Made by a program: the position numbers and the translations under genes | Shown here: piece by piece, positions 11,130-48,345 of the stretch | Position numbering within the stretch: position 1 is the first letter of the stretch | Layout: each line of letters opens with the position of its first letter | NCBI GenBank assembly: GCA_902385255.1 | Contig: CABMEV010000011.1 | Span: 1-64,000 of the forward strand | Origin: Candidatus Tiddalikarchaeum anstoanum | GTDB taxonomy: Archaea > Nanobdellota > Nanobdellia > Tiddalikarchaeales > Tiddalikarchaeaceae | Direction: 5' to 3' | Length of the DNA stretch: 64,000 nt | Notes under the pieces: model-generated | What the model was told of the DNA's origin: nothing | The model's database searches: none | What the model saw: the letters and a program-made list of their open reading frames with translations, nothing else

Positions 11130-11894
11130 TTACAAATTCTTATTTTTTCTAACATCAGTTAACACTTGTTCTACACGGTTTACGAATGTTTTAGTGTCAT
11201 TGTATAACTGCTGCAGTTCCTGGCCGCTCAAGTTTGGCCTCTTATTATGCTCTATATCCTTGAATGTCTGAATAACCTTTCTCGCAATATTATAATACTG
11301 CTCTTCAAGCACTTTCTTGGAGACTAAATAGTCCCTTATCGCATCAGGAATCTGCTTTGGCGCAGGAAGGTCTAATCCCATCTCTATTAGGAGACTCTGC
11401 GTGCTCGAGATTATTGCACCCTCAAGGTTTTGTATCAATCCCTTATTTACGCTGTGGTATGTCATATCCATTAATTGTTTTGCAATGAATAATTGGCGCT
11501 CAACCGATTCTTGTTTCAATTTAACCACTTTTTTTCTAACTAGTTTCTGCATCGTCGTGAAAAACCCTGTATCATAATATATTGAAGCATCCCTAAGTAT
11601 GGTGAATGTTACAGGGCTCCCGTTTTCAACATAGTTCCAGAACTCTGTGAGGCTGAAAGTCTGGCAGTGAATTTTAGGGCTCACCGCCTGAGCTATTCTC
11701 TTAATGACAGATTCGTAATACTCCTTGTTTACTTCCTCAGTGTCATCGAATATTACTACAATATCTATATCGCTGGCATCCTCATATCCAACTCCGGAGT
11801 TTGCAGAGCCAATAAGGCATACGCTTGAGATATTTATAACTCTGGAGATAAGATTCTTAACAAAGACGTCAACGATCTCAATCATTTTGATCAT
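11130..11894 (-). CDS. Pol-beta superfamily nucleotidyltransferase-domain protein (NTase-1)
   Basis: GSANSGVGYEDASDIDIVVIF (GS...DxD); paralogous to 22665..23459; overlaps the GTPase ORF by 17 nt. Confidence 0.8.
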   Translation of the reverse strand: MIKMIEIVDVFVKNLISRVINISSVCLIGSANSGVGYEDASDIDIVVIFDDTEEVNKEYYESVIKRIAQAVSPKIHCQTFSLTEFWNYVENGSPVTFTILRDASIYYDTGFFTTMQKLVRKKVVKLKQESVERQLFIAKQLMDMTYHSVNKGLIQNLEGAIISSTQSLLIEMGLDLPAPKQIPDAIRDYLVSKKVLEEQYYNIARKVIQTFKDIEHNKRPNLSGQELQQLYNDTKTFVNRVEQVLTDVRKNKNL

Positions 11895-12783
11895 TCTGAC
11901 ATACTTTTAAAAAAGATAAATACAGCGAATTAACAAGCAGGTAAAACAGATTCCATGGCCCTAATTTGCTTTTTTCGACTGTTGAATTAATGTCAGAATT
12001 CATTACTACTCTTTCATAAAACTTCAAGTATTCCAGCTCATCAGACAAGAATTCATTAAAAGTTAATGATTCTCGTGTTTTTAAGCTGCCTACTGCCCCA
12101 TCTAAGAAGAAGATGTTATAATTCCTATAACTGTTATCAATTGTGGCGTTCAATTGTTCTAACGCTAACAACGTGTTGTGTTTCAGGTTGCCGCGCCCTT
12201 GCATGTTTAATTCATCAAGCTTGTTTATGTAAAAGCCCATAACTATCGGCATTTTGGAATTAAATTCCTTCAAAGACATTTTTGCATCCATCGCTCTCTG
12301 GAAATAGGTTGGCAGCTGGTTTATATTATTATAATCAAACACCAGCATGGTTGTCGCACCTGCTGAACATATGTTCTGCTTTTTCTCGTAAAGGTTATCT
12401 CCATGGTTGCCTTCTTCATGTCCTGATGTGTCGACGAGTGTAATCCTGTTGGATGTTGTTTTTAAGTTAATGTCCGCATTCAAATCATGCAAAGGGTATG
12501 GCTTCACTGTACGAACATACATGTTCATAAAATCGTTAAAGACATTAATATCAACATCCTTCATGTTTTTAACGATAAGTTCAGGGTTATGTTCTAAGTA
12601 CATAAAGTAAGAATAGAAAGCGTACAGTGTTGTAGGCGTGTCATATAATGTGTTTGGTTTCGGTTTGTCTTTTGATATCAGACACATGTTGGATTTCCCT
12701 ACATAAGGCGGACCCATAAGGGTAACTTGCTCGGTATTTAGAATTTTTGAAAAATAAGAAAAAAATTCAACAGGAAGTGTCAA
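11878..12783 (-). CDS. Small GTPase-like protein (GTPase-B)
   Basis: G1 GPPYVGKS, G3 DTSGHE, G4 NKLD, G5-like GAVGSLK. Confidence 0.8.
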   Translation of the reverse strand: MTLPVEFFSYFSKILNTEQVTLMGPPYVGKSNMCLISKDKPKPNTLYDTPTTLYAFYSYFMYLEHNPELIVKNMKDVDINVFNDFMNMYVRTVKPYPLHDLNADINLKTTSNRITLVDTSGHEEGNHGDNLYEKKQNICSAGATTMLVFDYNNINQLPTYFQRAMDAKMSLKEFNSKMPIVMGFYINKLDELNMQGRGNLKHNTLLALEQLNATIDNSYRNYNIFFLDGAVGSLKTRESLTFNEFLSDELEYLKFYERVVMNSDINSTVEKSKLGPWNLFYLLVNSLYLSFLKVCQNDQND

Positions 12784-12797
12784 TATTTAACACCTCC

Positions 12798-13943
12798 TTA
12801 CAGTGCATTGATTACGTAGGCAGCTAAATATGCAGAGTACACAAGAGCTTTAGGAGTTTTAATGTTTAAATTCATTATTATATCTTCCTTAAACTGCATT
12901 ACACTTTCTTTATTATCGCCTACGAATGCGGTTAAAGGCTGGAATCTGTTAATTTCAGCCGGCTTATTTGCCTGCCCGAAATTCTTCAGACTGCAGACTG
13001 TGCCCTGTGTGAATTTAACATTCAAGTGAGGGAATTCAGTTTTCAATTCTTCTTTTTTCTCCATTAATTCTTTTAGTTGTGTATCCAACTTTGCTTTGTC
13101 ACCTGCTACAAGTGCTGTATTGGCAGATATCAAATCATATTTGTTGTATACTATTGTGAAAACTATGTTTCTTGGGTTAATCTTTTCTTCCTCTTCTGCA
13201 GATAACTTAAAATCATCCTTACGTTTATTGTATGTTTCCATTATTGCTCTTATTGTTCTTTCAAATAAGTAAGGTATAGCATTAGCTTGAAGAGTTTTAG
13301 TGCTGTCCTCTGGGTCGGTGTATTCAAAAAGCATGTGGTCCGGGGATACCATAAGTATCATTGAAATGCCTTTTTCACTAATCATAGTCTTTTGGCTTGA
13401 AGCATCAGATACAATACTTTCAAGTGAACCATTTTCTTTTTTGAGTTTACCTTTTGATGTTAAAACATCATGTCCAGGGAGGTCCCATAAAACAGGCATT
13501 TGTTTTGGTGTTGGCAGGATAAAATAATCATTAAGATTAGCTTCAGTTACAACTCCTGAGTCTACTTTAACGTTATCCCTGTCATACGCGATGAAATTAC
13601 GCACGCCCTTTCCGAATAAGTAAGATTTCAAACTAGCTGCATAGTCAGCAGTCAGGTTGGAATAAACCTCAGATGGGAGGATATGGTTGGTTGTTAAATC
13701 AGCAAAATTGATAAAGAACGTTCCTGCCACTGACTGTGTTGATGATGTAGACAGATTTGCGTTAGCAACAGTTAAAGACTGATCTGCAGACATACATAAA
13801 TAAGTTTTACCAACTTCGAATGGGCCTAATATAGGAATATCTGTAGCCCTTCCATAAGTTGTACAATCATTATTAAAAGCTTCACTTGACATTTTTTTTA
13901 TTTCACCTTGACCTCTGACCAAATAATTTATATTTAAAAACAT
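12798..13943 (-). CDS. Small GTPase-like protein (GTPase-A)
   Basis: G1 GPFEVGKT, G3 WDLPGHD, G4 NKYD, G5-like GTVCSLK. True start probably MSSEAF (SD GGTGAAAT upstream) rather than MFLNINY. Confidence 0.8.
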   Translation of the reverse strand: MFLNINYLVRGQGEIKKMSSEAFNNDCTTYGRATDIPILGPFEVGKTYLCMSADQSLTVANANLSTSSTQSVAGTFFINFADLTTNHILPSEVYSNLTADYAASLKSYLFGKGVRNFIAYDRDNVKVDSGVVTEANLNDYFILPTPKQMPVLWDLPGHDVLTSKGKLKKENGSLESIVSDASSQKTMISEKGISMILMVSPDHMLFEYTDPEDSTKTLQANAIPYLFERTIRAIMETYNKRKDDFKLSAEEEEKINPRNIVFTIVYNKYDLISANTALVAGDKAKLDTQLKELMEKKEELKTEFPHLNVKFTQGTVCSLKNFGQANKPAEINRFQPLTAFVGDNKESVMQFKEDIIMNLNIKTPKALVYSAYLAAYVINAL

Positions 13944-13966: not shown

Positions 13967-15142
13967 TTATTCTTGAAATATCTCTGGCGGCAAAACCGTG
14001 GTGAAAAATGAAGCACCCAGGACGGATTTTAATATATCTGTATAAGATTTTACTTCCAAGCTCGATTTGAGGTAATTAGTTGTCAATTCATCTGTTGATT
14101 TAAAGCTGTTATTCTCATCCAGCATAACTGGCTGAGTCAGGAAGTAGAATAATCCTTCTTTTGACGGGTCATCTATCCTCTCTTCGAGGAAAGTTTTAAG
14201 GTTTTTAATATTATTCTGATTTGCTTCTTTAGAGTATGAGGCTAACTGTATCAGAGGAAGAGACATGCCGAACTGGCCTGTTTTATTGAGGTTGGTGTAA
14301 GTTCTGATTAAGTTCTTTATTGCTTCCACTTTGTTATTATCATTTATATCAAAGAAGAACAAGACTGCATCCTGGCCGGACAGTGCCGTTTCATCAAAAA
14401 AGCTCACACCCTTATTAAGATAATATGTTAAATCTAATATGCTAACCAAATCCTTCTTTTTAAGTTTGTTAAGTCTGTCTTCTCCGCTGGTAAGTCCGGA
14501 GAACATTATATTTCTTTCAGCAATGTCAGTAGTATAACTGTTAAATCTTAAATCAACCTTATTATTCTCCATATCTCTGCGAGTGATATAATTTGATATT
14601 GATGACAAAAAGTCAGTAAAAACCGAGTTATTGTCAAAATAGGCAAAAAAGTTCTTTCTGTGTATGTATGCATTTCCAAGATTGTTCTTCCTGTAGACAA
14701 AATCCTGTATTAACAAATTTATTTCATCACCCCAATTGGTTGATTCAAATGATGAAGCTTCTTTAAAGAGGCTGTCTAAGGATTCTTGGGAACAATCCTG
14801 ATTAAAAAATGTGAAAAAGAATGGGAAGACAAGCCTGTAAGGCAGGTCATATTTTTCTTTTATATTTATTTGGCCTGTAGAAATTTTTTCAACTAATTGT
14901 TTTTTAAAATAAGGCATGTTTATGGCGCCGTCTAATCTTTTTGGAGGGTTATACATGAAAAGTTCAACGTTTTGTATCAATTGGTCAATTACTTGGATGC
15001 AGCTTTGCAACGCTACATCACATTCCTGAATATCTGTTGATGTAGATATATAGTTTAAGATATTATTATACAAAATGGTCTTTTGCCCGTCATTTGCCCA
15101 TTTAAGGTACTTGCTGTTATTCATAAAATTTGCAATATTCAT
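13967..15142 (-). CDS. GTPase-operon protein with possible degenerate GTPase-like C-terminal domain
   Basis: 391-aa ORF; region NIMFSGLTSGEDRLNKL...DAVLFFFDINDNNKVEAIKNLI...LPLIQLASYSKE has GTPase-like spacing without G1/G4 residues. Confidence 0.6.
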   Translation of the reverse strand: MNIANFMNNSKYLKWANDGQKTILYNNILNYISTSTDIQECDVALQSCIQVIDQLIQNVELFMYNPPKRLDGAINMPYFKKQLVEKISTGQINIKEKYDLPYRLVFPFFFTFFNQDCSQESLDSLFKEASSFESTNWGDEINLLIQDFVYRKNNLGNAYIHRKNFFAYFDNNSVFTDFLSSISNYITRRDMENNKVDLRFNSYTTDIAERNIMFSGLTSGEDRLNKLKKKDLVSILDLTYYLNKGVSFFDETALSGQDAVLFFFDINDNNKVEAIKNLIRTYTNLNKTGQFGMSLPLIQLASYSKEANQNNIKNLKTFLEERIDDPSKEGLFYFLTQPVMLDENNSFKSTDELTTNYLKSSLEVKSYTDILKSVLGASFFTTVLPPEIFQE

Positions 15143-15144
15143 TT

Positions 15145-16161
15145 TTATATATCACCACCAAAAACTTTCAGTAAATCCAGATTGCTCCTCTTTTCCATCT
15201 GAGGCATTATTTTCTTAATATAGCATGTACCTGAATCGAAATACATTATGTATTTGAATAACTCATCGGAGAATCCGCAGAAGAACGGCTGAAATGCCAG
15301 GTTTTCTGTTAGTTCATTACATGAGACGTAAAGGGAGAAAGTTTCATTTCTAACAAAGTTTGCAATGGCTATCATTTTTTCTTTCAGTATTGGATTAACC
15401 CTCGGGCTGCCTTTTGGGCCTTTAAAAGAATCCTTGTTAATGCGTATTTGGTTGTTTTCCAGTTCATATTGGAAAGACAGGAAAGGTACAGAAGGCAGAT
15501 TGAATCCGTTAAAATTATGCTGGTCACATAACATATCTACAATATTAAACATGGCATCATCGATTGATTCGTCAAGTATGACTTCAAGGTTAGGTTTGTA
15601 AGGCTTATCCAGATTCTTATCAGTTATGTGCTGTTTGACAAGGGTGCTTTTTTTGTATTGCTCCAGTGCAGTATTTAAATGGATGTCAAACTGCTGTTTT
15701 ATTATTTTTAACATTGAGTTGTTAACGTAATAATTGCTGTCCAGCGGGACCTCGTTAGGCAAGAACCAGTTTTGAAAACAGCTTGATAACAGGTTAAAAT
15801 CAAATCGGTCCGATACAATTTGAAGATAAATATCTCTTGGGAAGTAGATGCAGTCTGTAAAATTTCGATTCCAATAATCTAATGAAGCCTGCTCATCCTC
15901 ATTTATTAATTTGCCTTTTGAATAAATTATTTTTTTCCCGTTAAGCCTGGAATAACAAAAGTTTAAGTCCAAAGTTTTATATTCAGACTGTATATTCTGC
16001 AAGTCACCTACATAGTGGCCCAGAACTGCAAAGTTTATTGAATTATCAATGGATTCATATTTAACAGGCCATGTATTAACAGGAGAAGATGGAAAACCTT
16101 TTTCGCCGCATTTTATTCCTTCTTCAATTTTCCAGAATCCAAAACGTTGGTGGTCTGTCAT
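15145..16161 (-). CDS. GTPase-operon protein of unknown family (338 aa), probable first gene
   Basis: ORF 2 nt upstream of 13967..15142; no family recognised. Confidence 0.6.
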   Translation of the reverse strand: MTDHQRFGFWKIEEGIKCGEKGFPSSPVNTWPVKYESIDNSINFAVLGHYVGDLQNIQSEYKTLDLNFCYSRLNGKKIIYSKGKLINEDEQASLDYWNRNFTDCIYFPRDIYLQIVSDRFDFNLLSSCFQNWFLPNEVPLDSNYYVNNSMLKIIKQQFDIHLNTALEQYKKSTLVKQHITDKNLDKPYKPNLEVILDESIDDAMFNIVDMLCDQHNFNGFNLPSVPFLSFQYELENNQIRINKDSFKGPKGSPRVNPILKEKMIAIANFVRNETFSLYVSCNELTENLAFQPFFCGFSDELFKYIMYFDSGTCYIKKIMPQMEKRSNLDLLKVFGGDI

Positions 16162-16256
16162 TTAACGAACTCATAATAATTCTAATTAAAAACATGATTT
16201 ACCACTAAAAAGTAGTAAAGCAATATTTTAAATGCATTTATTTGTTCAATTAGTGC

Positions 16257-19200
16257 ATGAGTTTAAACGAAAGCGAAAGTAAAATATTTGAATGCCTTAA
16301 AAACAAGATTGTCGAATATAGTGCGAACTTAAATATAAATTTTAACATGAATTCATTTAAGAATAAATTATTAGATTATATTATAAACCTGAAAGTCACT
16401 ACAACTGACCCTGACTTACCTTCTAAACTAACAAATAGCATATTACAGTACTTGGCAAATAATGACAAACCTTTTGAAGAGCTGAATGCAATTCAGTTCT
16501 TCGAAAATTATTTACATGTTGATAGTAATCCTGAAAATAAAAAGCAGATAGAATTCTTGAAGAAGTTTCAGACATTATATGGTGTGTCCAAAAACAAAGA
16601 AGGGATATTTATTGATAAAGCCCCAAAGCTGCAGGAGTTCTATAAGACATGCTATGAAGATGAGGATGAAAATAACTATTTAACATTCATAAAAAATTTC
16701 GAAGAAAACATAGTTCCTTTGTTTAAATCAATTGTAAGCATTGATAAGGAAGCAATAAAATCCGAAGTAGTAGATGATAGTTTGGAGAATATTAAAAAAT
16801 CAATTAAGCAAAACCCTGATAAAAGAAAGTATGCAAGCAATATTATAGAAATAACAAAACCGAAGTTTAATGAATTATTTAATATTTATACCGGTTTGGA
16901 TGACTGTAATAATTTAAATTCATCTGTTAAGGAAAATTTCAGCGAACTGGTTCAAAACCTTGAAGATATAATATATGAGAATGACAGCGACGGAAGAGGT
17001 GCAATTGATACTGATTTCTTTAAACTGATTCAGGATAAAAAAAATGTGGATGTTATTATAAAAAAGAATAATCTGGTTAAACCAACAACTAAGGCGGATT
17101 ATTTCAAAGAAACATTGAAGTTTTTGTCGCAAGAATTTGAAGAGTTCAGCAAGAAGAATTCAAAATTCATAAACGATTCCCAAATTTATGTTAAATGCGG
17201 CAAAGAGGAGTACAAGAATACAAAACAGGCGGATGTGTACAATAAAATTGCAGATAAAGAAACGATAGAATTCATATATAAGCTAATGGTTTATTTATCT
17301 AATTTTAAGAACATAATCCCATTACAGCAGATTTTCGAAAAAAAATATTTGGGAAATAATATCCTGCAGTTTAATATAACTGATGATATATTGTTGCCGG
17401 GCCATCAGAACAAGGGAGACTCGATAATACTGCAGGGTAAAACATTATATGATGATTGCTTAACAAAAATAGCCGCGCTAGATTTCATAAAAGCAAGCGA
17501 TAAAAATGAAAAATTAAAAGATTTTTTAGGCTTAATAGATAAAAACAGAATGTCAGATATTGACAGGACAAGCAGTATAAGCAAATTCAGGGAATTATTT
17601 GAAAAATTCTACACGCTGTTTAACGGAAAAACAAAAATCCAGCCTAGTGATGAAGAGCAGCCAAACAATGCTAACCCTGTTAATGACCAAAAATCCATTT
17701 TTAAAATTTACAAAATAGATAATGATTATAGGTTGATAAGGATAGAGAAGAGGCCTAGAATATTAGCCACTTTAGAAGTTGGATTATTCCTCCAAAACCT
17801 CTACCAGTTAATAAAGCAAATAAATCCAAATACTGATTTGGATGCGAAACTCTCGCTTGAAGACCAGAGAGCAATAGCTGCTGATTTCTTCTTAAGCAAG
17901 GATTATGACGGCCGTAAAAAGATATTGAATGATATTAAAGGCGATGTTCTTAATGTTAATGAAGCAAGAAATGAGATGCTTCAAGAGATAACTAATTTAA
18001 AAACTGAGAAAAAAAGCCAGAAAGCTAAATCACAATTCGAGACGTTTTTAGAGTTCGTTTCAAATCTGTCTTTTGCAGATGAGAAGGAGAAGAATGATGC
18101 AGTATCCAAATTGAGCACTGTAGCACAGCTAAAAAGAGATTCTCTTGATTCGATAACTATGGAATATAAGAAGAAGAATGATAAGCAAATCGAGGTTGTT
18201 ATAAATTACGGACCAGGAAGGACAACAAAGATTTATCTACCTGCAAATGTGCCTATAGAAACTTATCTTGGTGCGCCTCAGAAATTATCAAGCCCGCTTG
18301 CGAATACGCCTGTTCATATGAGAGCTAAAAAAGAAAATAACCAGTCTCCGGAAGAGGATAATTTAGAGACAACAATCTCGGATTTCAATCCTGATATGTT
18401 TATAGATCCAACTTCAGACTGGAGTGCCTGGCTTAAAAAGGTTAAACAAGCAAATCCTTCAATTAGCGTTGAAACCGTAATGAACGATTTAGTGACTAGT
18501 TATGAAGCTACTCAAATCTTAATAGGTTCAAAAATAAGAAAAAATAATTTATCAGACAAGTACCCAACAGACAATCCAAGTCTTACTATAAAAATTGAGA
18601 ATGGCAAATTAGTATACTCTTTATCTATAGGCGACAAGACGTATGAACAATTAAACAAGGAAGTTAACCAGTTCTTAAGTTTAAAAAAGAAAACCCAAAT
18701 GATGCAGGAGCCGGTAGAAACTGAAATACCTTCTCAAGAACCTATAATTGTTCAGCCATTAGTGCTGCCAAGATTCAAACATGGCAAAAAATATACGGAG
18801 ACTCCTGAATTAAGAACATGGCTGGATACAGCATTTGGCTGCTGTGATGGCAATGAGCAGAGAAGTAAAGACGGGATTTTTAATACTTTAATTTCTGAAC
18901 TTGATTTCGTTGAAAAAAACTGTAAGTTACCGACCAGGGAGACGCCAACAGTAATACTTTCAGTTGAGAATGGAAAAATAAATATTGATTTTGACAAAAT
19001 AGACAAGGAGAGATATGCAAGAAGGAGACAGAATCAGGCTAATACTCCAGAACCGAATGCTAACCAGAATAATGGGCCAAAATTAAATGAAGAGCCTGTT
19101 GATATGGATAATCTTCAAGAAATGATTCACAAAGCATCAAACGCCCCTGTTAAGCAGGAGTTAAACATACCTTCTGTTACGAACGGGTCAAAAATAGATG

Positions 19201-20597
19201 CTATAAAAGCTTCACTTCCAAAAAGATTAGATGGGACTAATTCACAAACTCAGAATAATAATCCGCCTGTAATAAAAAAAGATGCAAAAGAGCAGGATAT
19301 ACCATTCGGACCTCCGCCTCCATTTAGACCTCCTGTTAATGGGCCAAATAATACAAACCCTATAGATATATCAAAATTAACTCCGCCTAAAGGGGCAGCA
19401 CAGCAATCAAAACTCGCACCTTTGGGAACGCAAGTTAAATCAGAAAATAAGCAGGCACAACAAGAGTTGCCGAATCTTACAGCGCCAAAAGAGGCAAAAA
19501 AAGCAAATGAAACAATAATACCTATCTCAGCGGCGATAAAGAATTTGCCGGAGTATAGAAGATTACAGAATATATTTGATGCTTCTAAACCTGACACTAC
19601 TCCTGAAATGATGGAAGAAGAGCTCATTAAATATTGTTTAAAACAAAATCCAGAACAAACACGCGAGGGTATAGAAGCAAGTGTTCAATATTTTGTACAG
19701 TCATTCCAGACGCTTGGTAAAAAAGAAGTTAATAGAATAAATATTTTAGCTGCAATATCATCTGGGCTTTCACCTGAAGAGATGTTAACTGAGATGGAAG
19801 ATTCATTAAGTGATTCCAGCCACAGCCAGAAAGGCAATGATTTAAATGATTTGCAAGAAACAATAAACAAACTTAACCAAATATCTCCTCCAGAAAATAA
19901 TCAAAATCAGGATGCAGCACCTATATCTAATTTGCCTGAAGAATTACCTCAAGAGAAGATAGTAGTGAAAAGGAAGGCAACAATACTATCATTAGAACAA
20001 GTAGCTCTTGAAATTGGCACTACACCTGCTAATTTATCGAATATTAAAAACATCCCGGACTCTCAAAAAGAGGCTTACATAATAAAAACTGCAAAGGTTA
20101 AACAAAAACCTATACCTGACAAAGATAGATTGTCAGAAATGGTATCATCCATAAACGGAGGGGATACGGTTAAAGAACCAGTACTGCATCTGGAAACGCC
20201 AAACCAAGCCATAAAAGAGGCACAGGATTATATACCGTCAAAAGATTTACCTCAGCATCCGCCAAAGTTAATACAGCCTCAGAATAAGAGTCCGCCCGTA
20301 ATAAAACAGGATGCAAGCCAGAATGTCAAACCTATTATCAATCAGACACCAGTAAAACAGGATGCGAATCAGCAAAGTGTTAAACCATTAATTAATCAGG
20401 TGCAGCCTAATAACGGCGGTTTATCAATTAAGAACGCGGCAGACAGGATAGGTTCAACTCCTGAACAGTTGGCGAATATTAAGACTTTGTCAGAACAACA
20501 GATTAGGGCGTTCATAACAAATACTGCAACTAGAAAGCAGAAGAAGCAGCTTAGCAGTGATGAATTAAACGATATTGTGACTGCTATAAAAAAGTAA
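16257..20597 (+). CDS. Giant modular cytoplasmic protein (1446 aa)
   Basis: Long intact ORF; no signal peptide or TM segment; helical N-terminal half, repeated modules, P/Q/N-rich linkers, duplicated C-terminal module. Confidence 0.75.
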   Translation: MSLNESESKIFECLKNKIVEYSANLNINFNMNSFKNKLLDYIINLKVTTTDPDLPSKLTNSILQYLANNDKPFEELNAIQFFENYLHVDSNPENKKQIEFLKKFQTLYGVSKNKEGIFIDKAPKLQEFYKTCYEDEDENNYLTFIKNFEENIVPLFKSIVSIDKEAIKSEVVDDSLENIKKSIKQNPDKRKYASNIIEITKPKFNELFNIYTGLDDCNNLNSSVKENFSELVQNLEDIIYENDSDGRGAIDTDFFKLIQDKKNVDVIIKKNNLVKPTTKADYFKETLKFLSQEFEEFSKKNSKFINDSQIYVKCGKEEYKNTKQADVYNKIADKETIEFIYKLMVYLSNFKNIIPLQQIFEKKYLGNNILQFNITDDILLPGHQNKGDSIILQGKTLYDDCLTKIAALDFIKASDKNEKLKDFLGLIDKNRMSDIDRTSSISKFRELFEKFYTLFNGKTKIQPSDEEQPNNANPVNDQKSIFKIYKIDNDYRLIRIEKRPRILATLEVGLFLQNLYQLIKQINPNTDLDAKLSLEDQRAIAADFFLSKDYDGRKKILNDIKGDVLNVNEARNEMLQEITNLKTEKKSQKAKSQFETFLEFVSNLSFADEKEKNDAVSKLSTVAQLKRDSLDSITMEYKKKNDKQIEVVINYGPGRTTKIYLPANVPIETYLGAPQKLSSPLANTPVHMRAKKENNQSPEEDNLETTISDFNPDMFIDPTSDWSAWLKKVKQANPSISVETVMNDLVTSYEATQILIGSKIRKNNLSDKYPTDNPSLTIKIENGKLVYSLSIGDKTYEQLNKEVNQFLSLKKKTQMMQEPVETEIPSQEPIIVQPLVLPRFKHGKKYTETPELRTWLDTAFGCCDGNEQRSKDGIFNTLISELDFVEKNCKLPTRETPTVILSVENGKINIDFDKIDKERYARRRQNQANTPEPNANQNNGPKLNEEPVDMDNLQEMIHKASNAPVKQELNIPSVTNGSKIDAIKASLPKRLDGTNSQTQNNNPPVIKKDAKEQDIPFGPPPPFRPPVNGPNNTNPIDISKLTPPKGAAQQSKLAPLGTQVKSENKQAQQELPNLTAPKEAKKANETIIPISAAIKNLPEYRRLQNIFDASKPDTTPEMMEEELIKYCLKQNPEQTREGIEASVQYFVQSFQTLGKKEVNRINILAAISSGLSPEEMLTEMEDSLSDSSHSQKGNDLNDLQETINKLNQISPPENNQNQDAAPISNLPEELPQEKIVVKRKATILSLEQVALEIGTTPANLSNIKNIPDSQKEAYIIKTAKVKQKPIPDKDRLSEMVSSINGGDTVKEPVLHLETPNQAIKEAQDYIPSKDLPQHPPKLIQPQNKSPPVIKQDASQNVKPIINQTPVKQDANQQSVKPLINQVQPNNGGLSIKNAADRIGSTPEQLANIKTLSEQQIRAFITNTATRKQKKQLSSDELNDIVTAIKK
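20292..20399 (+). repeat. Two ~54-bp tandem repeat units inside the giant gene
   Basis: Units encode PPVIKQDASQNVKPIINQ and TPVKQDANQQSVKPLINQ; related PPVIKKDAKEQ at ~19262. Confidence 0.75.
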
Positions 20598-20646: not shown

Positions 20647-21504
20647 ATGATATTAACCAGTTCAGACCTTGTTTTTTATGCAACCAAGTTAACTAATATT
20701 CTCAGTAAAGAAACAGGTATAGAGGAATTTAGCACTGTGGGCAGCACAGTAAAATACTATATTTCTTATGTTAATAAGGAAAAAAATGCAAGGGAGGCAT
20801 TTAACAGAAACCCCCCAGCTCCGAATGCAGCATTCGATGCAGCAAGATTCAGGACTGAGCAGTTGGAAGAAGGATTAGGGAATTTAAGCCCTGAAGAAAA
20901 ACATGAAAAAATCAGCCTGAGAAAAAAAGCATTAGAGATCGGATTAGTGCTTTATAAAAACGAAGTCTCCAGAGAGTTATCAAAAACGTTTGAAGATGAA
21001 GAAAAGATAAAAAGCGACCCCTTAACACTTTATGCTTATATTGCTAACAAGGAAAACTGCTCCGTTAAAAATTTGTTCCAATACTATGCTAAGGTTAAAG
21101 CATTAAATAATTTAGAGGATATACCTGTGAAAAAATGGGGTTTCCATAAAAAGAAGGCGCAGACTGCAGTTGAAGACTCTAAAAATCTGCTTGACAAGTA
21201 CAAGGAAACGGATAATTTAATCACAGAAAACGGATTCAGCATCTTAGACGAAGTCAATAAAGTTAAGAAATTTTCAATGGATTATGCTAAGAAGATGATA
21301 ACTTGCAAAGAATACGTGTTAAGCCAGGTTAAGACTGATGAGGATGTATTGAAAACAATTGATTACTTGAGGATAATATCTAATAATTCAAAAAACAGGA
21401 ATAAGGATGTTGTTTTAAATGAAGAGTTTAAAAATATAGCAGGCAGAAGGGACTTTAAGAAGCTTGATTTTTCAAGTATTGAACCTTTTTATGCAGTGCA
21501 ATAA
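20647..21504 (+). CDS. Hypothetical helical protein (285 aa)
   Basis: ORF immediately downstream of giant gene. Confidence 0.6.
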   Translation: MILTSSDLVFYATKLTNILSKETGIEEFSTVGSTVKYYISYVNKEKNAREAFNRNPPAPNAAFDAARFRTEQLEEGLGNLSPEEKHEKISLRKKALEIGLVLYKNEVSRELSKTFEDEEKIKSDPLTLYAYIANKENCSVKNLFQYYAKVKALNNLEDIPVKKWGFHKKKAQTAVEDSKNLLDKYKETDNLITENGFSILDEVNKVKKFSMDYAKKMITCKEYVLSQVKTDEDVLKTIDYLRIISNNSKNRNKDVVLNEEFKNIAGRRDFKKLDFSSIEPFYAVQ

Positions 21505-21609: not shown

Positions 21610-22650
21610 ATGGCTGATGGTTTAATTGATGCAGTATTAAAAATGGAAGGACACTTCGATAATGGAATATATAGTAATAGTAAAAAGACTGAAGAAAAGC
21701 CAGCTATCATAGAAGTTCCGGATAATATATATTCTAAACCTAAGAGTACTATCAGCAAGTTTGGAGCAACATTCATTGTAGATCATGAAAATCCTGAAAA
21801 AAGCAAATATGAATCAAGGGAGAATGCCAGACTTGACAGTTTATTGAATTATAAAGATATTAGCAAAGTATCAAAGTATAAAACAGATAAAGACACAGCT
21901 GCAGGATTATTGAAAATCATAGGAAGCCTCAACCAGTTAATAGATGAGAATGGAAAACCTGTTTATATCCAGAAAAATAAAGCAGGGGAAGATGAGATTA
22001 ATAATAACGAATATGAAAAATTATTATTAAACAAGGATTTAACACAGACAAGGCTATTATATACGTTCTGTGAAAACTTAACTCACATTCAAATACCAGG
22101 AATGCCTTGTGATAAACAACATCACGTAGGAGACTTTATCACACTTGATAATATGAGTTTCAACAGGTCATTTGATGTAACAGGCAAAACGATTCCAAAT
22201 AATGAAATATTAATTTACATGTTTAAGGAAGTAACCGCTTTCCTAAAAGAAAGTAGCACTGGCAACTACAAATCGACAACCCTTCCTGGATTATTTGCAG
22301 ACGCATTAGGAGCCTTAAAGGAGAACATAAATGACAAGCAGTTTGAACAAATAATGACCAGCGTAAAAGAGGGTAATATTAAAACATTGACTGCTGCGTG
22401 CAGTTACCATTGTGAAAGGCTGCAGAAAGAGCAAAAAGCATCACCTGAAAAATATTATGACAGCTTAGTAAAAGGAGCTTTCAAAGACTTAAAGACATAT
22501 ATAACTAACTCAATAACTAATAAGGAACAAAAGCCTAACTTCACAAGATTAGAGCAATTATCTCGCGAGTATTTAGACATCAACAAAGATGCTAACACTT
22601 CAGACGAGGAAAAAGAGAAAAAGAAAAAGACATATCTTAGCTGGTTCTGA
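21610..22650 (+). CDS. Hypothetical protein (346 aa)
   Basis: ORF; no family recognised. Confidence 0.6.
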   Translation: MADGLIDAVLKMEGHFDNGIYSNSKKTEEKPAIIEVPDNIYSKPKSTISKFGATFIVDHENPEKSKYESRENARLDSLLNYKDISKVSKYKTDKDTAAGLLKIIGSLNQLIDENGKPVYIQKNKAGEDEINNNEYEKLLLNKDLTQTRLLYTFCENLTHIQIPGMPCDKQHHVGDFITLDNMSFNRSFDVTGKTIPNNEILIYMFKEVTAFLKESSTGNYKSTTLPGLFADALGALKENINDKQFEQIMTSVKEGNIKTLTAACSYHCERLQKEQKASPEKYYDSLVKGAFKDLKTYITNSITNKEQKPNFTRLEQLSREYLDINKDANTSDEEKEKKKKTYLSWF

Positions 22651-22664
22651 AAAAAAAAGAAAAA

Positions 22665-23459
22665 TTAGATTTTCTTTTTTAATTTATCTTCCATTACTTT
22701 GTTGAAACTTATAGTCTTCTTCAGGTACGCATCGTAATCTTTTCCTGTAATCTTTGTCAAGTCCCTGTGCTCTATCTTTTTGAACAATTTCTGCAAATCA
22801 ACGAATAATTTGACACTCTTAGCGTCCACTTTTATCCCTTTAAGCATTAAAGGCACTTTATCAGGGCTTGGAGGAACTTGTCCGTAAGCCATCAAAGTTG
22901 ACTGGCTGGCGTCTAATGCGCTCAGGTATAATTCCTGTGCCGCGGATAACAAGTTGATTAATCCTTTCAACTTATGAGTTTCCACTCTTGATGCTAAGTT
23001 AAGTATTGCTTCCGCGCTTGGCCTTAATCTTCCCTTAAGCAGCAATACCTTTAGTGGCGAAAAGAATCCTGTGTCAATAATAGGTATTCCATCCCTTAAT
23101 ACATTAAACACTACAGGTTCGCCGTTTATCAGGTTCTCCCAGAATACAGTCAGCGTCACTGTGTTTACGTGGAGTTTATCGCTTGTTTTCATTATTGACT
23201 CATTAATCTGTTTCTGGAAGTAGATTTTGAAATTATTGTCAGACACTACTTCTGCATCGTTGAAAACAATCAGTATATCTATATCTCCTCTGTGTTCTTT
23301 CTTTACTGCTCCGCTTCCGAAGAAGATTACGCTTTTTATCACTCCGCTAAATTCAGGGTAAACCCTGTTTGCGAATTTAAGAGCTAAGTCATAATCTTCG
23401 CCGTACATATTATCTAAATTATTTTTTTCTTTTTTCTCATCAACCATATTTTTTTTCAC
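22665..23459 (-). CDS. Pol-beta superfamily nucleotidyltransferase-domain protein (NTase-2)
   Basis: FGSGAVKKEHRGDIDILIVF; shared FWxxxxNGxPVxFxxLRDxxxxxDTGFF with NTase-1. Confidence 0.8.
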   Translation of the reverse strand: MKKNMVDEKKEKNNLDNMYGEDYDLALKFANRVYPEFSGVIKSVIFFGSGAVKKEHRGDIDILIVFNDAEVVSDNNFKIYFQKQINESIMKTSDKLHVNTVTLTVFWENLINGEPVVFNVLRDGIPIIDTGFFSPLKVLLLKGRLRPSAEAILNLASRVETHKLKGLINLLSAAQELYLSALDASQSTLMAYGQVPPSPDKVPLMLKGIKVDAKSVKLFVDLQKLFKKIEHRDLTKITGKDYDAYLKKTISFNKVMEDKLKKKI

Positions 23460-23476: not shown

Positions 23477-25207
23477 TTACTCAGTAGGGGTTTCTGTAAA
23501 CTCATCTTTAGGCTTTCCTCCGCCCGCTCCGAACGTGCTTTGCAATCCTGCAAAAGGTCCTCCCCAGCTTGACCAGTGCATTTGTGACAAGTTATGACCG
23601 TAGTTTACGTTGCGCATCGAGTAAGGCGTTGAAAAATCAAGCCCTATATCCCTTGATGTTGGACTTGCATAAGTTGAGTATATAGGCGAGCCAAGACCCA
23701 TAACATTTGATAACGACTGGAATGCTTTGTCAAACTCTCCTTCCTGGGCGAACGCTTCAAACTGCATAGTTCCCTTAAAACCATTCTCTTTTAGTATCTT
23801 CATGAATTCATCCATTTGGACGTCTCCTCTTCCTATCATCATGTGCGAGTCGACTCCGAATTCACCCATATTATCAGCCAAGTGTACTGCTTTAACTCCT
23901 TTCTTCGCCAATGTCGTTGCTAATTCCTGCAGGTCTTCATTAGTGTATTTCCTGTCAGTTCCCGGCTTAATCTGCTGCTTTAACGTGTTTAAGTGCCCGG
24001 TGTCAAAAGTTATTCCAATTAATTCTTCTGATTTCTTTTTAGCATCTTCTCTTGACAGTTTCTCATCTTTTTCCAGCATTTCTGCAAATTTTTTCCTCGA
24101 CTTGTCAACCCATCCTGTTAATAGTTCAGGATCGCTTCCAAGCTGCCATCCTGGCTCGTTCTCGAAAGCGAGCACTGGCTTAGTGTCTGTCTTGAATGCA
24201 GTCATTGCAAGTTTTGCAACCTGGTCAGGCACTATATCATTGCTGTAATCGGTTAATGATACGAATTGGCGTCTGTTTTCTTCCCCTGCCCCGAATGTTG
24301 CTTCAATCCTTTGTATTGCCCTAGTTTCAGAAAGTATAGTTAATTTTATGTCATCAGCTATTTTCGTGCCTTCAGGATAATTTCCTGTTTCTCTTAATTG
24401 TTTTAATCTTATCTGCGCATCAGCCAAGTTTTTGTAGTGCTCGCTGAGTGCTGTCCTGTTCTGCATGGCTATGCTTTTTTCAGGAGTAATTTTGAACATT
24501 ACATTGCCGTTTTTGTCCATCGTGTTTTGGACTTCTTCATATAATAGTGATGCTCCTTCTCCCATTCCTTTAGGCAGTCTTTCAAATCTTGTGTCAACAG
24601 GCATTATTTGTCCAGTGTCCTTGTTCACTACTGAATTTCTCTCGCCGAGTATTGGTTTTCCGTCATTGTCTCTAAATCCTGAATCGAATACTGTCTTTAC
24701 TGCTGCGGGACCGTTCGTAGTGTGCAGGCTTATTACTGGATTTTCTAACCCTGCCGCTTTTGCGATATTATCCGCCTGTTCGATGCTTGATTTTAATATG
24801 TTAAAATGTTCAGCTCTCTGCTGTCCTGATATCGCCTGCTGCTGGCCTTCCTTTCCTCCAAGCCCCATGATGTCAACTATCGGCGCGTGAAGCACGAAGT
24901 TAGTCTTGTTAATGTACATTAATTCACCGACTGCGTTCTGCTGCAGTTTGCTGAATCGTTCTATCTGTGAAGGCAATGCCTGGTCTCCTCTTGCCATGTT
25001 CGGCTCCATTAATGTTATCATGACACTTGGAAGTCCGTGGCGTATTGCTGCATCAACTCCCTGTAGCGGTGTCTTCTGGGGGTGGAAGCTTTCACCTAAT
25101 GTAACGTTTTGATAAATTGCTGGAGGCTGATTTCTTTTCTCCTCTTCAGCAAGAGTGAAATAACTGCTAGTATCTGTTACTGTGAAGTACTTATCATCAA
25201 ATACCAT
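23477..25207 (-). CDS. Xylose isomerase-like / AP endonuclease 2-type TIM-barrel protein
   Basis: NFVLHAP, PVISLHTTNG, PVLAFENEPG, TFDTGHLN, AVHLADN, MIGRGDVQ, MQFEAF: metal-ligand pattern of the TIM-barrel family. Confidence 0.75.
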   Translation of the reverse strand: MVFDDKYFTVTDTSSYFTLAEEEKRNQPPAIYQNVTLGESFHPQKTPLQGVDAAIRHGLPSVMITLMEPNMARGDQALPSQIERFSKLQQNAVGELMYINKTNFVLHAPIVDIMGLGGKEGQQQAISGQQRAEHFNILKSSIEQADNIAKAAGLENPVISLHTTNGPAAVKTVFDSGFRDNDGKPILGERNSVVNKDTGQIMPVDTRFERLPKGMGEGASLLYEEVQNTMDKNGNVMFKITPEKSIAMQNRTALSEHYKNLADAQIRLKQLRETGNYPEGTKIADDIKLTILSETRAIQRIEATFGAGEENRRQFVSLTDYSNDIVPDQVAKLAMTAFKTDTKPVLAFENEPGWQLGSDPELLTGWVDKSRKKFAEMLEKDEKLSREDAKKKSEELIGITFDTGHLNTLKQQIKPGTDRKYTNEDLQELATTLAKKGVKAVHLADNMGEFGVDSHMMIGRGDVQMDEFMKILKENGFKGTMQFEAFAQEGEFDKAFQSLSNVMGLGSPIYSTYASPTSRDIGLDFSTPYSMRNVNYGHNLSQMHWSSWGGPFAGLQSTFGAGGGKPKDEFTETPTE

Positions 25208-25240: not shown

Positions 25241-26656
25241 TTACGAGAGAGGTCCCGTCCAAGTCATCCAGCCGTTCTCATCCTTGAAATTCTCATAAGA
25301 TTCGAACGTGCTTTTTATCATATCACTTGTCATATTCTTCAGATCGTTTTCTAACTTGTACCTCTTCAATTCAGGGCCTGCTTCTTCCTCGCTTTTTTTC
25401 TCAGCTGGCTTGAATAATCCGCTAAATACGTTAAGCAACGGCTCGAAAGGGTATAATAGGAATTCGAAAGGTTTAGGTTCGTTAGGTTTAGGTTTCTCTG
25501 CCTCTTTAAACTGTCCTCCTGTCACGTACTTCTGGAGGTCGTCTTTTATGGCGTCCAGGCTGTTTCCAACTATATCTTTTAAGAAGTCAATATCCTCCAA
25601 TGTTTCAATTTGAACCATATCGTTGTATTGCTCGTTGGTCATTACGTAAGGCGTGTAAGTTACTTCAACTCTGAAAACGTGCTGGTAAGATTGTCCCTGT
25701 TCAGTCCTTGTGAGTATTGGTCTTGTTCTAAACTGGAAGTCGACATTTGCAAATCCTGTGACTAGCATGCTCTTCTGAGGTTTTGCTTTATTTATTCCTC
25801 CTTTGAATGCCCTGACTCGCGCGGTTATTAAGCTGCTGTCAAATCCAGGTATTAGTTCGGCGCTTGTTACTCCGCTGCTTATCTCCAATTGTTTCATAAG
25901 AATGTAATAAGGTTTTGCCCATTCGACCTGCATTTTCAAACTTTCAACCTGGCTTGTCAAGAACTGCATCTGGATTTTCTTTCGTCCTCTTATGTCTTTC
26001 TCGTACTCTTTACTCCAGTTTAAGTATTCGTTAAAGCGGTCTTTCAAAATACGCTTTATCCTGTCGTTAACTTTCAAATCATCAATGCTTTTTAAGTCGC
26101 TGACTACCATGAATGAGTCTCTTAACGCCACGAATTCTAATCCTTGGGTTGTGCTCATCTGGTGAATGCTTCCTCTTCCTTTCTTGATGTCAACCTCATC
26201 CAAATATATCCTTTTTAGGTTCTGCTCTGCTGCGAATTTCTTGATTGAATCCCCTCTTGATATATCATCAAATATGTGGATTATCAAATCAAACTCCCTT
26301 AATGAGTATATTAACTTAGTGACTGTTTGTATGATCCCTGTTATTATCTGCATTGACTTGTCAAACTGTTCTTTAGCGTAAGCTTTTCTCTGCGAGACGT
26401 CCCCGTAAAATCCGCTGGTGGGGCTTGCTGCCATAGTCTGGCTTACTTTGGCAAGGTCAAAATCACCTATTGCTCTTAACTCGTCAAGAATCATGAGATA
26501 ATATTTTGATAAAGATTGAAAAGGTGTGTTTACTTGGATATAATATTTTACAGGCCAGCCGTCAATATCTTTAGCTTGGAAGTCTTTTAAGTGGTCTTTC
26601 CACCATTCCTTTTTAACCTTCTTCTCGGCGTCTGTTAATTTTTTCGTTTCAGCCAT
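25241..26656 (-). CDS. Hypothetical protein (471 aa)
   Basis: ORF, first gene of the 26656->22665 run. Confidence 0.6.
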   Translation of the reverse strand: MAETKKLTDAEKKVKKEWWKDHLKDFQAKDIDGWPVKYYIQVNTPFQSLSKYYLMILDELRAIGDFDLAKVSQTMAASPTSGFYGDVSQRKAYAKEQFDKSMQIITGIIQTVTKLIYSLREFDLIIHIFDDISRGDSIKKFAAEQNLKRIYLDEVDIKKGRGSIHQMSTTQGLEFVALRDSFMVVSDLKSIDDLKVNDRIKRILKDRFNEYLNWSKEYEKDIRGRKKIQMQFLTSQVESLKMQVEWAKPYYILMKQLEISSGVTSAELIPGFDSSLITARVRAFKGGINKAKPQKSMLVTGFANVDFQFRTRPILTRTEQGQSYQHVFRVEVTYTPYVMTNEQYNDMVQIETLEDIDFLKDIVGNSLDAIKDDLQKYVTGGQFKEAEKPKPNEPKPFEFLLYPFEPLLNVFSGLFKPAEKKSEEEAGPELKRYKLENDLKNMTSDMIKSTFESYENFKDENGWMTWTGPLS

Positions 26657-40131: not shown

Positions 40132-41283
40132 TTAGGTGTTTATTACGATTAATGGGACAAACATTTCTTCTTTCGTTAATCCCGAATGGTTTGCCTTAAA
40201 ATTAGGATATTTTTGTCCGTTTAATTCATCAAACAAGGCATAACCATCTTTTGAAATCAGGGTATAATCCCCTATTCTGTCTATTAATTTGGGATTTATT
40301 TCGTATAATCCAAAAAATCCTTTTTTAATTAAGTCTTCACTTTTGTAAATTTCACAATATTTTCTTAATTTTGTTTTAACATATTTTACAAAATTATTCT
40401 TTTCCTTGTTTTTTACATAACAATACGTTACTCTGGAATCCCCTGATAATGGCTGGGATAACATATTATACAGATTAGGGTGTTTTTTGCTTAAATTTAT
40501 ACAATTCGATTTTTTTATATTTGCCAGTCCGTGGTCTGCGGTTATTATTAGTGTAGTATTAGTGTTTTGTATTGATTTAATGAAGGATTTTAATCGTTTG
40601 TCAAATTCTTTTAAATGTTCTTTCACTTTCCTGCTGTTCACTCCTTCATTATGCTGGTACGTGTCAAATTTGGTCCAATATGAGTAGACATATGTTTTGT
40701 TATTGTTTGATTTTATTATCTTAGTATTTTCATCGAAGAATTCTTTTAATGAATTATATGGATGGATTTTTGTTTTTCCTAAAGTTGTTTTTATGTATTC
40801 CCTAGTTATCATCTCTTTTGGGATTACAGTGTATTTTTTTATTTGAATATTGTCAAAAAAAGGTTTCATATTATATAGATTATTGGGGTTAATTTGTCCG
40901 TCTAGTTTTATATGTCCTGCTCTTGTCGCAAAAAGCAATATTTGGGTTGTCATCCCTATTTCTTTTAAATAAACAAACCATCCTGTAAAAGCGTGTTGCT
41001 GGGGTGCGAGTCCTGTAATGAATGAATTAAATGCTGCTGATGTTGTTGATGGGAATACGGAAGTAATTTTGTTTGTTACATATTTTTTAAGTTCTATGTC
41101 ATTATTCATTAATAATTCATAGCCGAGTCCGTCTACTACCATTAGGATTATATGCCTGGATTTTTTTAGTTTTTGAATGTCCAAGCCTTTTAACGGTTTA
41201 TATAATGTTTTTCTGCCTAATGCAATCTTTATTGAACTCATCAGGTTTACAATGCTTCCATCATTATAGTTAGGCAAATACAT
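40132..41283 (-). CDS. Alkaline-phosphatase/phosphodiesterase superfamily protein
   Basis: HIILMVVDGLGYELL, TSVFPSTTSAAFNSFITGLAPQQHAFTGWF, TLIITADHGLANI, NHSGLTKEEMFVPLIV. Confidence 0.88.
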   Translation of the reverse strand: MYLPNYNDGSIVNLMSSIKIALGRKTLYKPLKGLDIQKLKKSRHIILMVVDGLGYELLMNNDIELKKYVTNKITSVFPSTTSAAFNSFITGLAPQQHAFTGWFVYLKEIGMTTQILLFATRAGHIKLDGQINPNNLYNMKPFFDNIQIKKYTVIPKEMITREYIKTTLGKTKIHPYNSLKEFFDENTKIIKSNNNKTYVYSYWTKFDTYQHNEGVNSRKVKEHLKEFDKRLKSFIKSIQNTNTTLIITADHGLANIKKSNCINLSKKHPNLYNMLSQPLSGDSRVTYCYVKNKEKNNFVKYVKTKLRKYCEIYKSEDLIKKGFFGLYEINPKLIDRIGDYTLISKDGYALFDELNGQKYPNFKANHSGLTKEEMFVPLIVINT

Positions 41284-45279: not shown

Positions 45280-48200
45280 TTATTGAGGGTAGTATCGCCT
45301 GTATTTTACAACTCTATTGCTTGATTGTGTGGCTCTTTCAGTCCAAATAAAGTACATCTTATCATTATAAACAGCCATGGCAGGAGAAGCTACATCACCA
45401 TTAGAGTTGCTGACATCTCCATAATATACTTGTGTCATACCTCCTTCAGGAAGTTTAGTGTAATAAACAGATCTGCTGCAGCGGTATGTAACATGTACAT
45501 CAGTCCCTGCTGCAACCATATAAGGAGTGTCACAGTACCCTTCGCTTTGTGTAAACGTCTGGTTAGCGCTCCAAGTTGCACCATTGTCTGAAGACTTGCT
45601 GTAAAATAATATAGACCTGTACTCATCTCTATCTTGATTCACAATGATATATTGTTCACTCCAGGAGATGTATACATCATTATTATCTAAGACTGTTATT
45701 GCTGGATTTGTCTGGTTCATATTATTATAGAATAAGTTTACGGGAACAGTCCAGTTTAATCCTTTGTCTGAAGATTTCATAAAATAAAATTTTTTAGGAT
45801 ACGTGTTATAATCAGTGCTGAAAACAACATATACGTTGTCCCCTTTTGCTGCAATATTCGGATTATTAACTAAAATGTTTGTTGTATTAGACAGCGTGCC
45901 CCAAGTTACTCCATTATTTGAAGAGTTTTCTACAAAAAGAGTGTAAAAATTTCCCCATGGTATGTAAATATTGTTTCCGTCAGCGAATAAGTCTGAACCT
46001 CCTCCTATGTTAAAATATGGATTCCAGTTTATTCCATTTGAAGAGTTCATATACGCTGATGCCATTAAAAGGTGAATCCTGTTGCCGCTCATTAACATCT
46101 CTGTAGGATTCCAATAATTTGCCCCGCTTACATTAGTGACGGATTGATTAAAAGTTCCTCCTGAGTCAAGTGAGTTTTCAAAATAAGTTTTAGTGTTTCC
46201 ATCCCTATTATCCGCCCATGTTAAATATACATTGCTATCATTTGCTGCTACAAAAGCATTATTCGATGCGTGATATGCGTCGCTTGTTATTGTTTTAATG
46301 TCATCCCAGTTTGAAGTTTCAAAAGCTAAGGTGGAGCTGTTGTATGAAAATCCCTGGCTGGTGCAGCTTATTTTAGCCTCGTAAACTCCGGATGATATCT
46401 TTCCTGAAAAAGTGACATTTTCAGGGTTAATAGTCATTGAATAACTTGTATCATTCAGGTATAAATTGCATGAATCAAGTGGAGGAATACTGAGATAGTT
46501 CGCGCTGAATGTTGCAGTATTATTCCAGAAAGACTGCAAAGGTACAGAAATTCCTGTGAAAACATAAGGCCTGCACAATCCTGTGTTGCAGACTCCGTCT
46601 GCCAAGCTGTTGCTGTTAGAGTCGCAGTATTTTCCGTTGCTTGACTCTCCTATGAATACGTCGTCAATTAAGAAGTCAGTGTTTATGACGCCAATGTATA
46701 ACCTTTTGCTGTAAAGGGATGGGTTTATTCCTAGTCTTGTCTCAGCTTCAGCGTCAGGATGAAGTGTGACTTCATTCCAGTCATTATCAGTTAATCCGTC
46801 AATGCAGATAATATTGCTTGATGGAGTGCACATGCTGCTAAGCCCGTTCTGGTATATAGCATAATATAATGATGTTGCTCCGGGGTCAGAAGTAAGATAT
46901 TGAACAATCGTTAATGCTGCTGTCATAGGCCCGGCTAGTGCTCCTTTAATCCAGAATTTTATTTCATCACCTGTAATGTTTTGTCCAGCACCTACTGGCG
47001 GCGATCCGCTAAAACTAAAGCCGCTGTCTGCCAAGTGTAACGCTTTCCCTGTATGTCCTCCGCTTACAGTTTCAAGTGTAGCTGGTGCAGGTATTTCTCC
47101 TGTCTGTCCCCAGTCTGTTAGTCCATTCTCGAATCCTGGATTTAAAACAGTGTTTTGTGAAGGCTCGCTGCATCCACAGGTGTAAGTATCTGTTGGTTGA
47201 AAACTAGCACTGCCGCTCCAGTCGACCATGTAGCCTGATGAACATTTTGAATCAAAATTCACACAAGAACCGCTTACACACCAGCCGTCAGCAACACTGT
47301 CACTGTTACTGTCACAATAAGATTGAGGTGTCTGGGTTGAAAGTCTTATATCATCCAAATACGCTGAGCCTCCCTTCATAGCACCTATATAAATAGTTGA
47401 AGGCATTCCTGTCGCATCATATCCTGTATAGTCAAACAAGTCCTGCAAAGGATTAAATTCGTAAGTGTTCCATGAGTTCTCATTTGCTTTAATGCATCTC
47501 GCATAACTGTTCGGACCGTTAGGGTGTTCTCCGCATAAAGCAAAACTTGGATTTGTATAAAAAACGTAAAACATAGCGTTCTGGTCTTGCCCATCAGTCA
47601 TATTATAGAATACGTCTACAAACACAGCTGAATCACTTGCTGTTATATTCTTAGCGCCGAATATGCTGAATGATAAGTAGCTTGCCGTGTCAGGAATTCC
47701 CTCCTTTCCAATTATGACTGGTTCATTCTCACTAAGATTAAATGCAGCTAAATAAACTGAATTGCTGCCTGATTTTGAAAATGTAGTGTTAATCATAATA
47801 ATATCACCCACTGTCTTATTATTATAATTCCATCCTGTAAATCCGTCTTCAAATCCGGGATTGGATACTAAGTTTCCAGGTTCTTCTATTGACATTAAGT
47901 TAGTGCAAGTCGTTGCTCCGTAGCCGCTTTCCTGCGTGTTCCTTAGTGCTGAACTGCATGTCTGGCTGCTAGTCCCGTCATTTAGTAATGCTTTTACGCA
48001 GTGGGACTCGCTTGGAGCAAGTGAAGTATAAGTTATTGTTGTCGCACTTCCTGGAAGAAGAGGAGTTGTCAAGTCATAACTGGTTAACTGGCCGTCGATT
48101 ATTAGTGTGACTTTCTGAATCGCTTCGCATCCGGAATTTTGGACTACGATGCCGTCTCCTCTCATGCTTATAATATTAAGCCTTGAACAAGCACTTATCC

Positions 48201-48345
48201 CTGAAGAAGTAGTTAATGCCGAACCTGCTGATTCCTGAAGCCTTGTCTGCACATTATTAATCCATAAAAAAGAAGCTGCAAAAGCAATAATAGTCATTAG
48301 AACAAGCAAGGATGTTGCAATAATAGGAGTAATCGCTTTACGCAT
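45280..48345 (-). CDS. Pilin-like N-terminus surface protein with two lectin-like modules and BNR/Asp-box propeller-like region
   Basis: MRKAITPIIATSLLVLMTIIAFAASFLWINNVQ (archaeal pilin/archaellin-type N-term); NPGFEDGFTGW and NPGFENGLTDW modules; four Asp-boxes. Confidence 0.8.
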   Translation of the reverse strand: MRKAITPIIATSLLVLMTIIAFAASFLWINNVQTRLQESAGSALTTSSGISACSRLNIISMRGDGIVVQNSGCEAIQKVTLIIDGQLTSYDLTTPLLPGSATTITYTSLAPSESHCVKALLNDGTSSQTCSSALRNTQESGYGATTCTNLMSIEEPGNLVSNPGFEDGFTGWNYNNKTVGDIIMINTTFSKSGSNSVYLAAFNLSENEPVIIGKEGIPDTASYLSFSIFGAKNITASDSAVFVDVFYNMTDGQDQNAMFYVFYTNPSFALCGEHPNGPNSYARCIKANENSWNTYEFNPLQDLFDYTGYDATGMPSTIYIGAMKGGSAYLDDIRLSTQTPQSYCDSNSDSVADGWCVSGSCVNFDSKCSSGYMVDWSGSASFQPTDTYTCGCSEPSQNTVLNPGFENGLTDWGQTGEIPAPATLETVSGGHTGKALHLADSGFSFSGSPPVGAGQNITGDEIKFWIKGALAGPMTAALTIVQYLTSDPGATSLYYAIYQNGLSSMCTPSSNIICIDGLTDNDWNEVTLHPDAEAETRLGINPSLYSKRLYIGVINTDFLIDDVFIGESSNGKYCDSNSNSLADGVCNTGLCRPYVFTGISVPLQSFWNNTATFSANYLSIPPLDSCNLYLNDTSYSMTINPENVTFSGKISSGVYEAKISCTSQGFSYNSSTLAFETSNWDDIKTITSDAYHASNNAFVAANDSNVYLTWADNRDGNTKTYFENSLDSGGTFNQSVTNVSGANYWNPTEMLMSGNRIHLLMASAYMNSSNGINWNPYFNIGGGSDLFADGNNIYIPWGNFYTLFVENSSNNGVTWGTLSNTTNILVNNPNIAAKGDNVYVVFSTDYNTYPKKFYFMKSSDKGLNWTVPVNLFYNNMNQTNPAITVLDNNDVYISWSEQYIIVNQDRDEYRSILFYSKSSDNGATWSANQTFTQSEGYCDTPYMVAAGTDVHVTYRCSRSVYYTKLPEGGMTQVYYGDVSNSNGDVASPAMAVYNDKMYFIWTERATQSSNRVVKYRRYYPQ

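Follow-up and report, generated by a model that had tools for sequence, protein, structure and literature searches.

The question raised by this locus is what kind of protein is encoded by the longest gene of the window (the whole 64,000-nucleotide stretch analysed, from Candidatus Tiddalikarchaeum anstoanum), and why this gene stands back to back with an operon that carries two GTPase genes (Table 1). The nucleotidyltransferase nt2, one of two nearby, places the window among Nanoarchaeota/Woesearchaeota MAGs of the class Nanoarchaeia, which are tiny, probably symbiotic archaea.

The 1446-residue gene and its neighbours

The reading frame encoding the 1446-aa protein is a genuine gene. As originally predicted, it is the longest open reading frame in the window; the chance of an open frame of this length at window composition is ~1e-42, and its synonymous-codon use fits the neighbouring host genes as well as that of any gene in the window. 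The divergent region of ~95 bp ascribed to it is indeed the gap that separates it from the 338-aa gene. By eye, a TATA-like TTTTAAAT at 16226-16233 would serve the plus-strand gene and a TATA-like TTTTTAAT on the minus strand, at about 16185-16192, would serve the 338-aa gene; both boxes lie ~25-30 nt from the respective start codons, a leaderless layout. The protein has neither signal peptide nor transmembrane helix, again as claimed (maximum 19-residue Kyte-Doolittle value 1.07), and the two same-strand unknowns expected downstream are present, with products of 285 and 346 aa that are both soluble.

Table 1. Positions of the genes, domains and protein parts discussed in the text
Feature	Position in window	Strand	Remarks
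nt1, nucleotidyltransferase of DPANN MNT-HEPN kind	11130..11894	-	PF01909; inner slot flank
GTPase B	11878..12783	-	G1 GPPYVGKS, G3 DTSGH, G4 NKLD; orphan
GTPase A	12798..13943	-	G1 GPFEVGKT, G3 DLPGH, G4 NKYD; orphan
391-aa orphan	13967..15142	-	GTPase operon
338-aa orphan	15145..16161	-	first gene of GTPase operon
Divergent intergenic region, 95 bp	16162..16256	.	between 1446-aa and 338-aa genes
1446-aa modular orphan protein gene	16257..20597	+	starts at ATG; subject of this analysis
C1 domain	19974..20165	+	first copy of duplicated 4-helix domain
C2 domain	20409..20594	+	second copy of duplicated domain; 41% identity to C1
285-aa soluble orphan	20647..21504	+	second slot gene, family X2 position
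346-aa protein	21610..22650	+	family X1; relatives in G002, G004, L062
nt2, nucleotidyltransferase paralogous to nt1	22665..23459	-	outer slot flank
Xylose-isomerase-like/AP_endonuc_2 TIM barrel	23477..25207	-	conserved operon
471-aa protein	25241..26656	-	conserved operon
1446-aa protein, parts			N-terminal region 1-460; 481-560; M1 561-690; M2 713-815; M3 839-925
1446-aa protein, parts (continued)			linker 926-1085; D 1086-1190; C1 1241-1302; linker 1303-1387; C2 1388-1446

No homolog of the 1446-aa protein was found in Nanoarchaeia (382 class genomes, with none in the 381 other than its own), among the 143 nearest relatives, in GTDB contigs searched by peptide patterns, in the Pfam, NCBIfam, PADLOC and PHROGs profile libraries, or in the PDB and phage records. 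A marginal phmmer score against a slot protein (X1, see below) of G023 (E 0.004-0.009) disappeared in a profile search. GTPase A, GTPase B and the 338-, 391- and 285-aa proteins were likewise not found in the other genomes searched. Neither GTPase has a significant Pfam or PDB match; GTPase B, which overlaps nt1 by 17 nt, gives weak small_GTP/MMR_HSR1 profile matches. Three weak matches to GTPase B in the class resembled AAA ATPases with a winged-helix-like tail and were rejected.

The flanks are of a different kind. The two nucleotidyltransferases are 29-30% identical to each other, both with intact GS...DxD motifs, and at least one nt1/nt2 match occurs in 94 of 95 relatives. An MNT-type nucleotidyltransferase domain is found in them, and the HEPN-like part is a reading by eye. 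They look to be of the same kind as the DPANN MNT-HEPN fusion family cls.004259 (NEQ050), whose members are widely conserved in DPANN archaea in a housekeeping context (Makarova et al., 2019; PMC6393860), a setting shared by nt1 and nt2 with their near-universal presence in the class. That account covers the enzyme only and does not include a hypervariable slot between paralogs. As side observations, Nanoarchaeia retain nt1 and nt2 together throughout the class, and the TIM barrel next to nt2 is co-conserved with it across the class and has conserved His/Glu/Asp positions; to judge from its sequence, this enzyme looks catalytically competent. The 471-aa protein of the same operon has no PDB or Pfam match.

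The gene occupies an enlarged hypervariable slot

The surroundings of the gene become intelligible when compared with those in relatives, where the conserved order is 471-aa protein, a protein of about 190 aa, TIM barrel, nt2, X, nt1 and usually L35Ae and Trm1. We compared 26 genomes that carry nt1 and nt2 together on the examined contig, a non-random sample in which several share families. The longest open reading frames in the slot were counted as X genes, with starts set mechanically in the relatives. The slot is occupied in 23 of the 26 informative relatives, by one or two soluble X genes of 115-621 aa. In every occupied slot (23/23) X is transcribed against the direction of both nucleotidyltransferase genes, diverging from nt1 across a gap of 28-314 bp and converging with nt2. 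Slot products are nearly all soluble, with 19-residue Kyte-Doolittle maxima below 1.3; the sole exception, an ORF of 82 aa in G067, was left out as an occupant.

The 1446-aa gene sits between nt2 and nt1 on the strand opposite to both, convergent with nt2, and its product is soluble like those of the other slot genes. It thus occupies an enlarged version of the hypervariable slot, with the slot's direction of transcription kept. The slot measures 17-2231 bp in relatives (median 892) and 10770 bp in the window, where the GTPase operon separates the divergent promoter region from nt1. Three genomes of the window's family (G002, G003 and G004) have two slot genes, X1 adjoining nt2 and X2 toward nt1. 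The 346-aa gene is recognisably X1, with 31-34% identity to the G002 protein over 61-70 aa (E 9e-7 in a small set, 9e-6 per genome) and further relatives in L062 and, weakly, in G004. Where X2 would be expected, the window has the 1446- and 285-aa genes, and no similarity to X was found for either; specifically, no homology of the 285-aa protein to the family X2 was found, and the similarity of the 1446-aa protein to X proteins is at chance level.

This geometry bears directly on the GTPases. The shared divergent region had been read as linking the 1446-aa protein functionally to the GTPase operon, and this argument is not supported: the slot gene is divergent from the nt1 unit in all 23 occupied slots, where GTPase genes are absent. 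Divergence is an inherited slot layout seen without GTPases and is therefore weak evidence for a partnership. For the 346-aa gene, co-occurrence speaks against a GTPase link: on the contigs examined, the slots that carry its relatives (G002, G004 and L062) contain no GTPase genes. The 1446-aa gene and the GTPases are neighbours found only in one and the same genome, and a partnership between their products is possible.

The products of the slot change much faster than their surroundings. Within families, flanking genes are 50-93% identical and X 18-57%. We compared substitution rates in the two pairs of genomes with unsaturated synonymous sites. For G047/G060, X has a dN of 0.27 against 0.04-0.06 in its neighbours, with a dS of 0.71 against 0.57-0.68; for G007/G021, the corresponding values are 0.38 against 0.09-0.12 and 1.29 against 1.18-1.36. 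In both of these close pairs, X thus exceeds its neighbours in dN by a factor of 3-7, with dS equal. Since X shares the dS of its neighbours and has the higher dN, it changes in place in both pairs: amino acids are substituted faster, and the gene is not replaced. X proteins of different families show a similarity of 22.9%, near the 21.5% of shuffled sequence, and X may therefore have been replaced between families. The gene-wide dN/dS of X is about 0.3-0.4, which alone is no proof of positive selection, and the slot genes behave as ordinary residents under reduced constraint.

The open-licence literature searched yielded no description of an opposite-strand, hypervariable slot that is retained between two paralogs, and the class-wide slot location of the 1446-aa gene is new here. 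Fixed position, strand and flanks combined with a fast-changing product point to a protein under unusual selection in hard-to-culture archaea; the slot is also a tangible way into a conserved DPANN operon that has so far lacked an explanation, and the 1446-aa protein illustrates the size that a slot product can reach. Among smaller observations, the slot gene of G048 (L080 9778-10923) encodes 381 aa with a P/Q/A-rich N-terminal low-complexity stretch, and that of G015 (L056 5091-6956) encodes 621 aa with a K/P-rich low-complexity linker. The nt2-nt1 slot of G010 is empty; a weak match to the 346-aa protein in this genome (L097, G010:C36:10640-10963; E 0.001, two internal stops) is possibly due to chance or a decayed copy.

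Modules, linkers and a duplicated C-terminal domain

The P/Q/N-rich linkers predicted between the modules are borne out by composition, with a P+Q+N fraction of 0.32-0.50 in the linkers (461-480, 691-712, 816-838, 926-1085, 1191-1240 and 1303-1387) and 0.11-0.18 in the modules. The linker motif PPVIK[K/Q]DA recurs within a 44-nt direct DNA repeat that is 84% identical. The C-terminal module is duplicated: residues 1244-1299 and 1389-1444 align over ~56 aa with 41% identity (z about 15-18). The central modules 713-815 and 839-925 are probably repeats as well (z 4-4.7), each being modelled, at low confidence, as helices, a beta hairpin and a helix. AlphaFold (AF2) gives C1 (64 aa) a confident four-helix fold (pLDDT 89.4; helices 7-14, 18-23, 29-42 and 50-60), and C2 reaches a pLDDT of ~77-81 inside a 962-aa model of residues 485-1446, which as a whole is mostly of low confidence and uninformative (mean pLDDT 40.6). 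A C1/C2 profile run against 95 genomes gave, apart from the window itself, nothing beyond short and weak matches, the best with E 4e-4 over 26 positions.

The duplicated domains bear on one further explanation, in which they would be helix-turn-helix-like and tether an architectural protein to DNA or RNA. C1 (to HTH_19/HTH_3, covering LSLEQVALEIGTTPANLSNIKN) and C2 (Xre-like) independently match Xre/HTH_3 types below threshold (E 0.07-0.18), and many of the weak PDB fold matches are Cro/C1 or LacI HTH domains. However, no Xre/HTH profile score reached its curated cutoff, as that of a canonical Cro/C1 HTH domain would, no PDB fold match falls below E 0.77, query-normalised TM-scores are mostly <0.5, and both domains are nearly neutral (C1 +1, C2 +4); a nucleic-acid tether is the least probable of the roles considered here.

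Candidate roles of the slot product

We lean, tentatively, toward the 1446-aa protein being a flexible, soluble, cytoplasmic, multivalent scaffold, the overgrown slot product of this lineage. In such a protein, flexible P/Q/N-rich linkers would connect the N-terminal region and a series of small modules, and the duplicated terminal domains C1 and C2 would provide multivalent binding. It could assemble the products of the conserved operon, namely the nucleotidyltransferases, the TIM barrel and the 471-aa protein, and perhaps also the two GTPases; the assembly could then be switched by their GTP cycle. The points that we count for a scaffold are the slot geometry in 26 relatives, the X1 homology of the 346-aa protein, the dN excess of X, the solubility of slot products, the module/linker pattern, the duplicated domain, the repeated motif, the host-like codon use and the low-complexity linkers in G015 and G048. 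Linker-rich architecture is also found in proteins that are not scaffolds. The scaffold or adaptor originally proposed is supported as regards a soluble, modular, linker-rich protein with duplicated domains and a repeated linker motif, and loses the argument for GTPase partnership drawn from divergence. The 1446-aa gene may also be new to the slot and unrelated to its usual occupants, since the similarity of its product to X is at chance level.

It is possible, though we consider it unlikely, that the locus is a conflict system in which a defence-like MNT-HEPN complex relies on the slot product as a rapidly evolving sensor or specificity factor and has gained GTPases and a large adaptor in this lineage. 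The classical roles of MNT-HEPN modules are in toxin-antitoxin or defence systems (PMC3710099), X varies strongly between conserved neighbours, and the two GTPases with their helical partner are reminiscent of the bacterial GTPase-centric conflict systems of the DO-GTPase/GAP1/GASH type (Kaur et al., 2020; PMC7159879), which share an adjacent TRAFAC-type GTPase pair, helical partners and highly variable components. The window differs from the latter in its archaeal host and in lacking a recognised effector, and Pfam gives no match to DO-GTPase, GAP1 or GASH at E<=1, a level that very divergent members could escape. Moreover, the nucleotidyltransferases have the near-universal distribution and reported housekeeping context described above; in PADLOC, nt1 and nt2 have only weak matches to generic nucleotidyltransferases, and none was obtained for the 1446-aa protein, the plus-strand genes beside it or the GTPase operon; and the gene-wide dN/dS of X is also expected from relaxed constraint. 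Polarity systems of the MglA/MglB/RomR type (a Ras-like switch with an adaptor) share with the window only the idea of a small GTPase with a large adaptor, and differ in that the GTPases here lack significant Pfam or PDB matches and no Roadblock protein is recognised in the operon.

Joint arrival of the GTPase operon and the 1446-aa gene, on a mobile element or virus inserting into the slot, appears improbable. Both are absent from all relatives searched, and their GC of about 0.34-0.36 compares with about 0.39 in most flanking genes. Against this, integrase, capsid, terminase and PHROG signals are all lacking, there is no tRNA at the borders, and the 1446-aa protein has no match in phage records. 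Gene order and strands match the resident slot, in which the 346-aa gene is the resident X1. A recent import is also made less likely by the host-typical codon use and by the lack of genes of mobile elements.

A long shot that would extend the scaffold reading is that Nanoarchaeia harbour an unrecognised diversity locus, in which a conserved nucleotidyltransferase/TIM-barrel complex would be paired with a hypervariable cytoplasmic subunit, represented here by the 1446-aa scaffold with a dedicated GTPase pair, gained in this lineage and encoded in the nt1 operon, and nt1 might nucleotidylate the GTPases or the scaffold.

Two genes elsewhere in the window stand out: a phosphodiesterase-like gene at 40132-41283, whose GC of 0.296 is unusually low for the window, and the second longest open reading frame, at 45280-48345, which encodes a 1021-aa protein with a weak BNR-repeat match.
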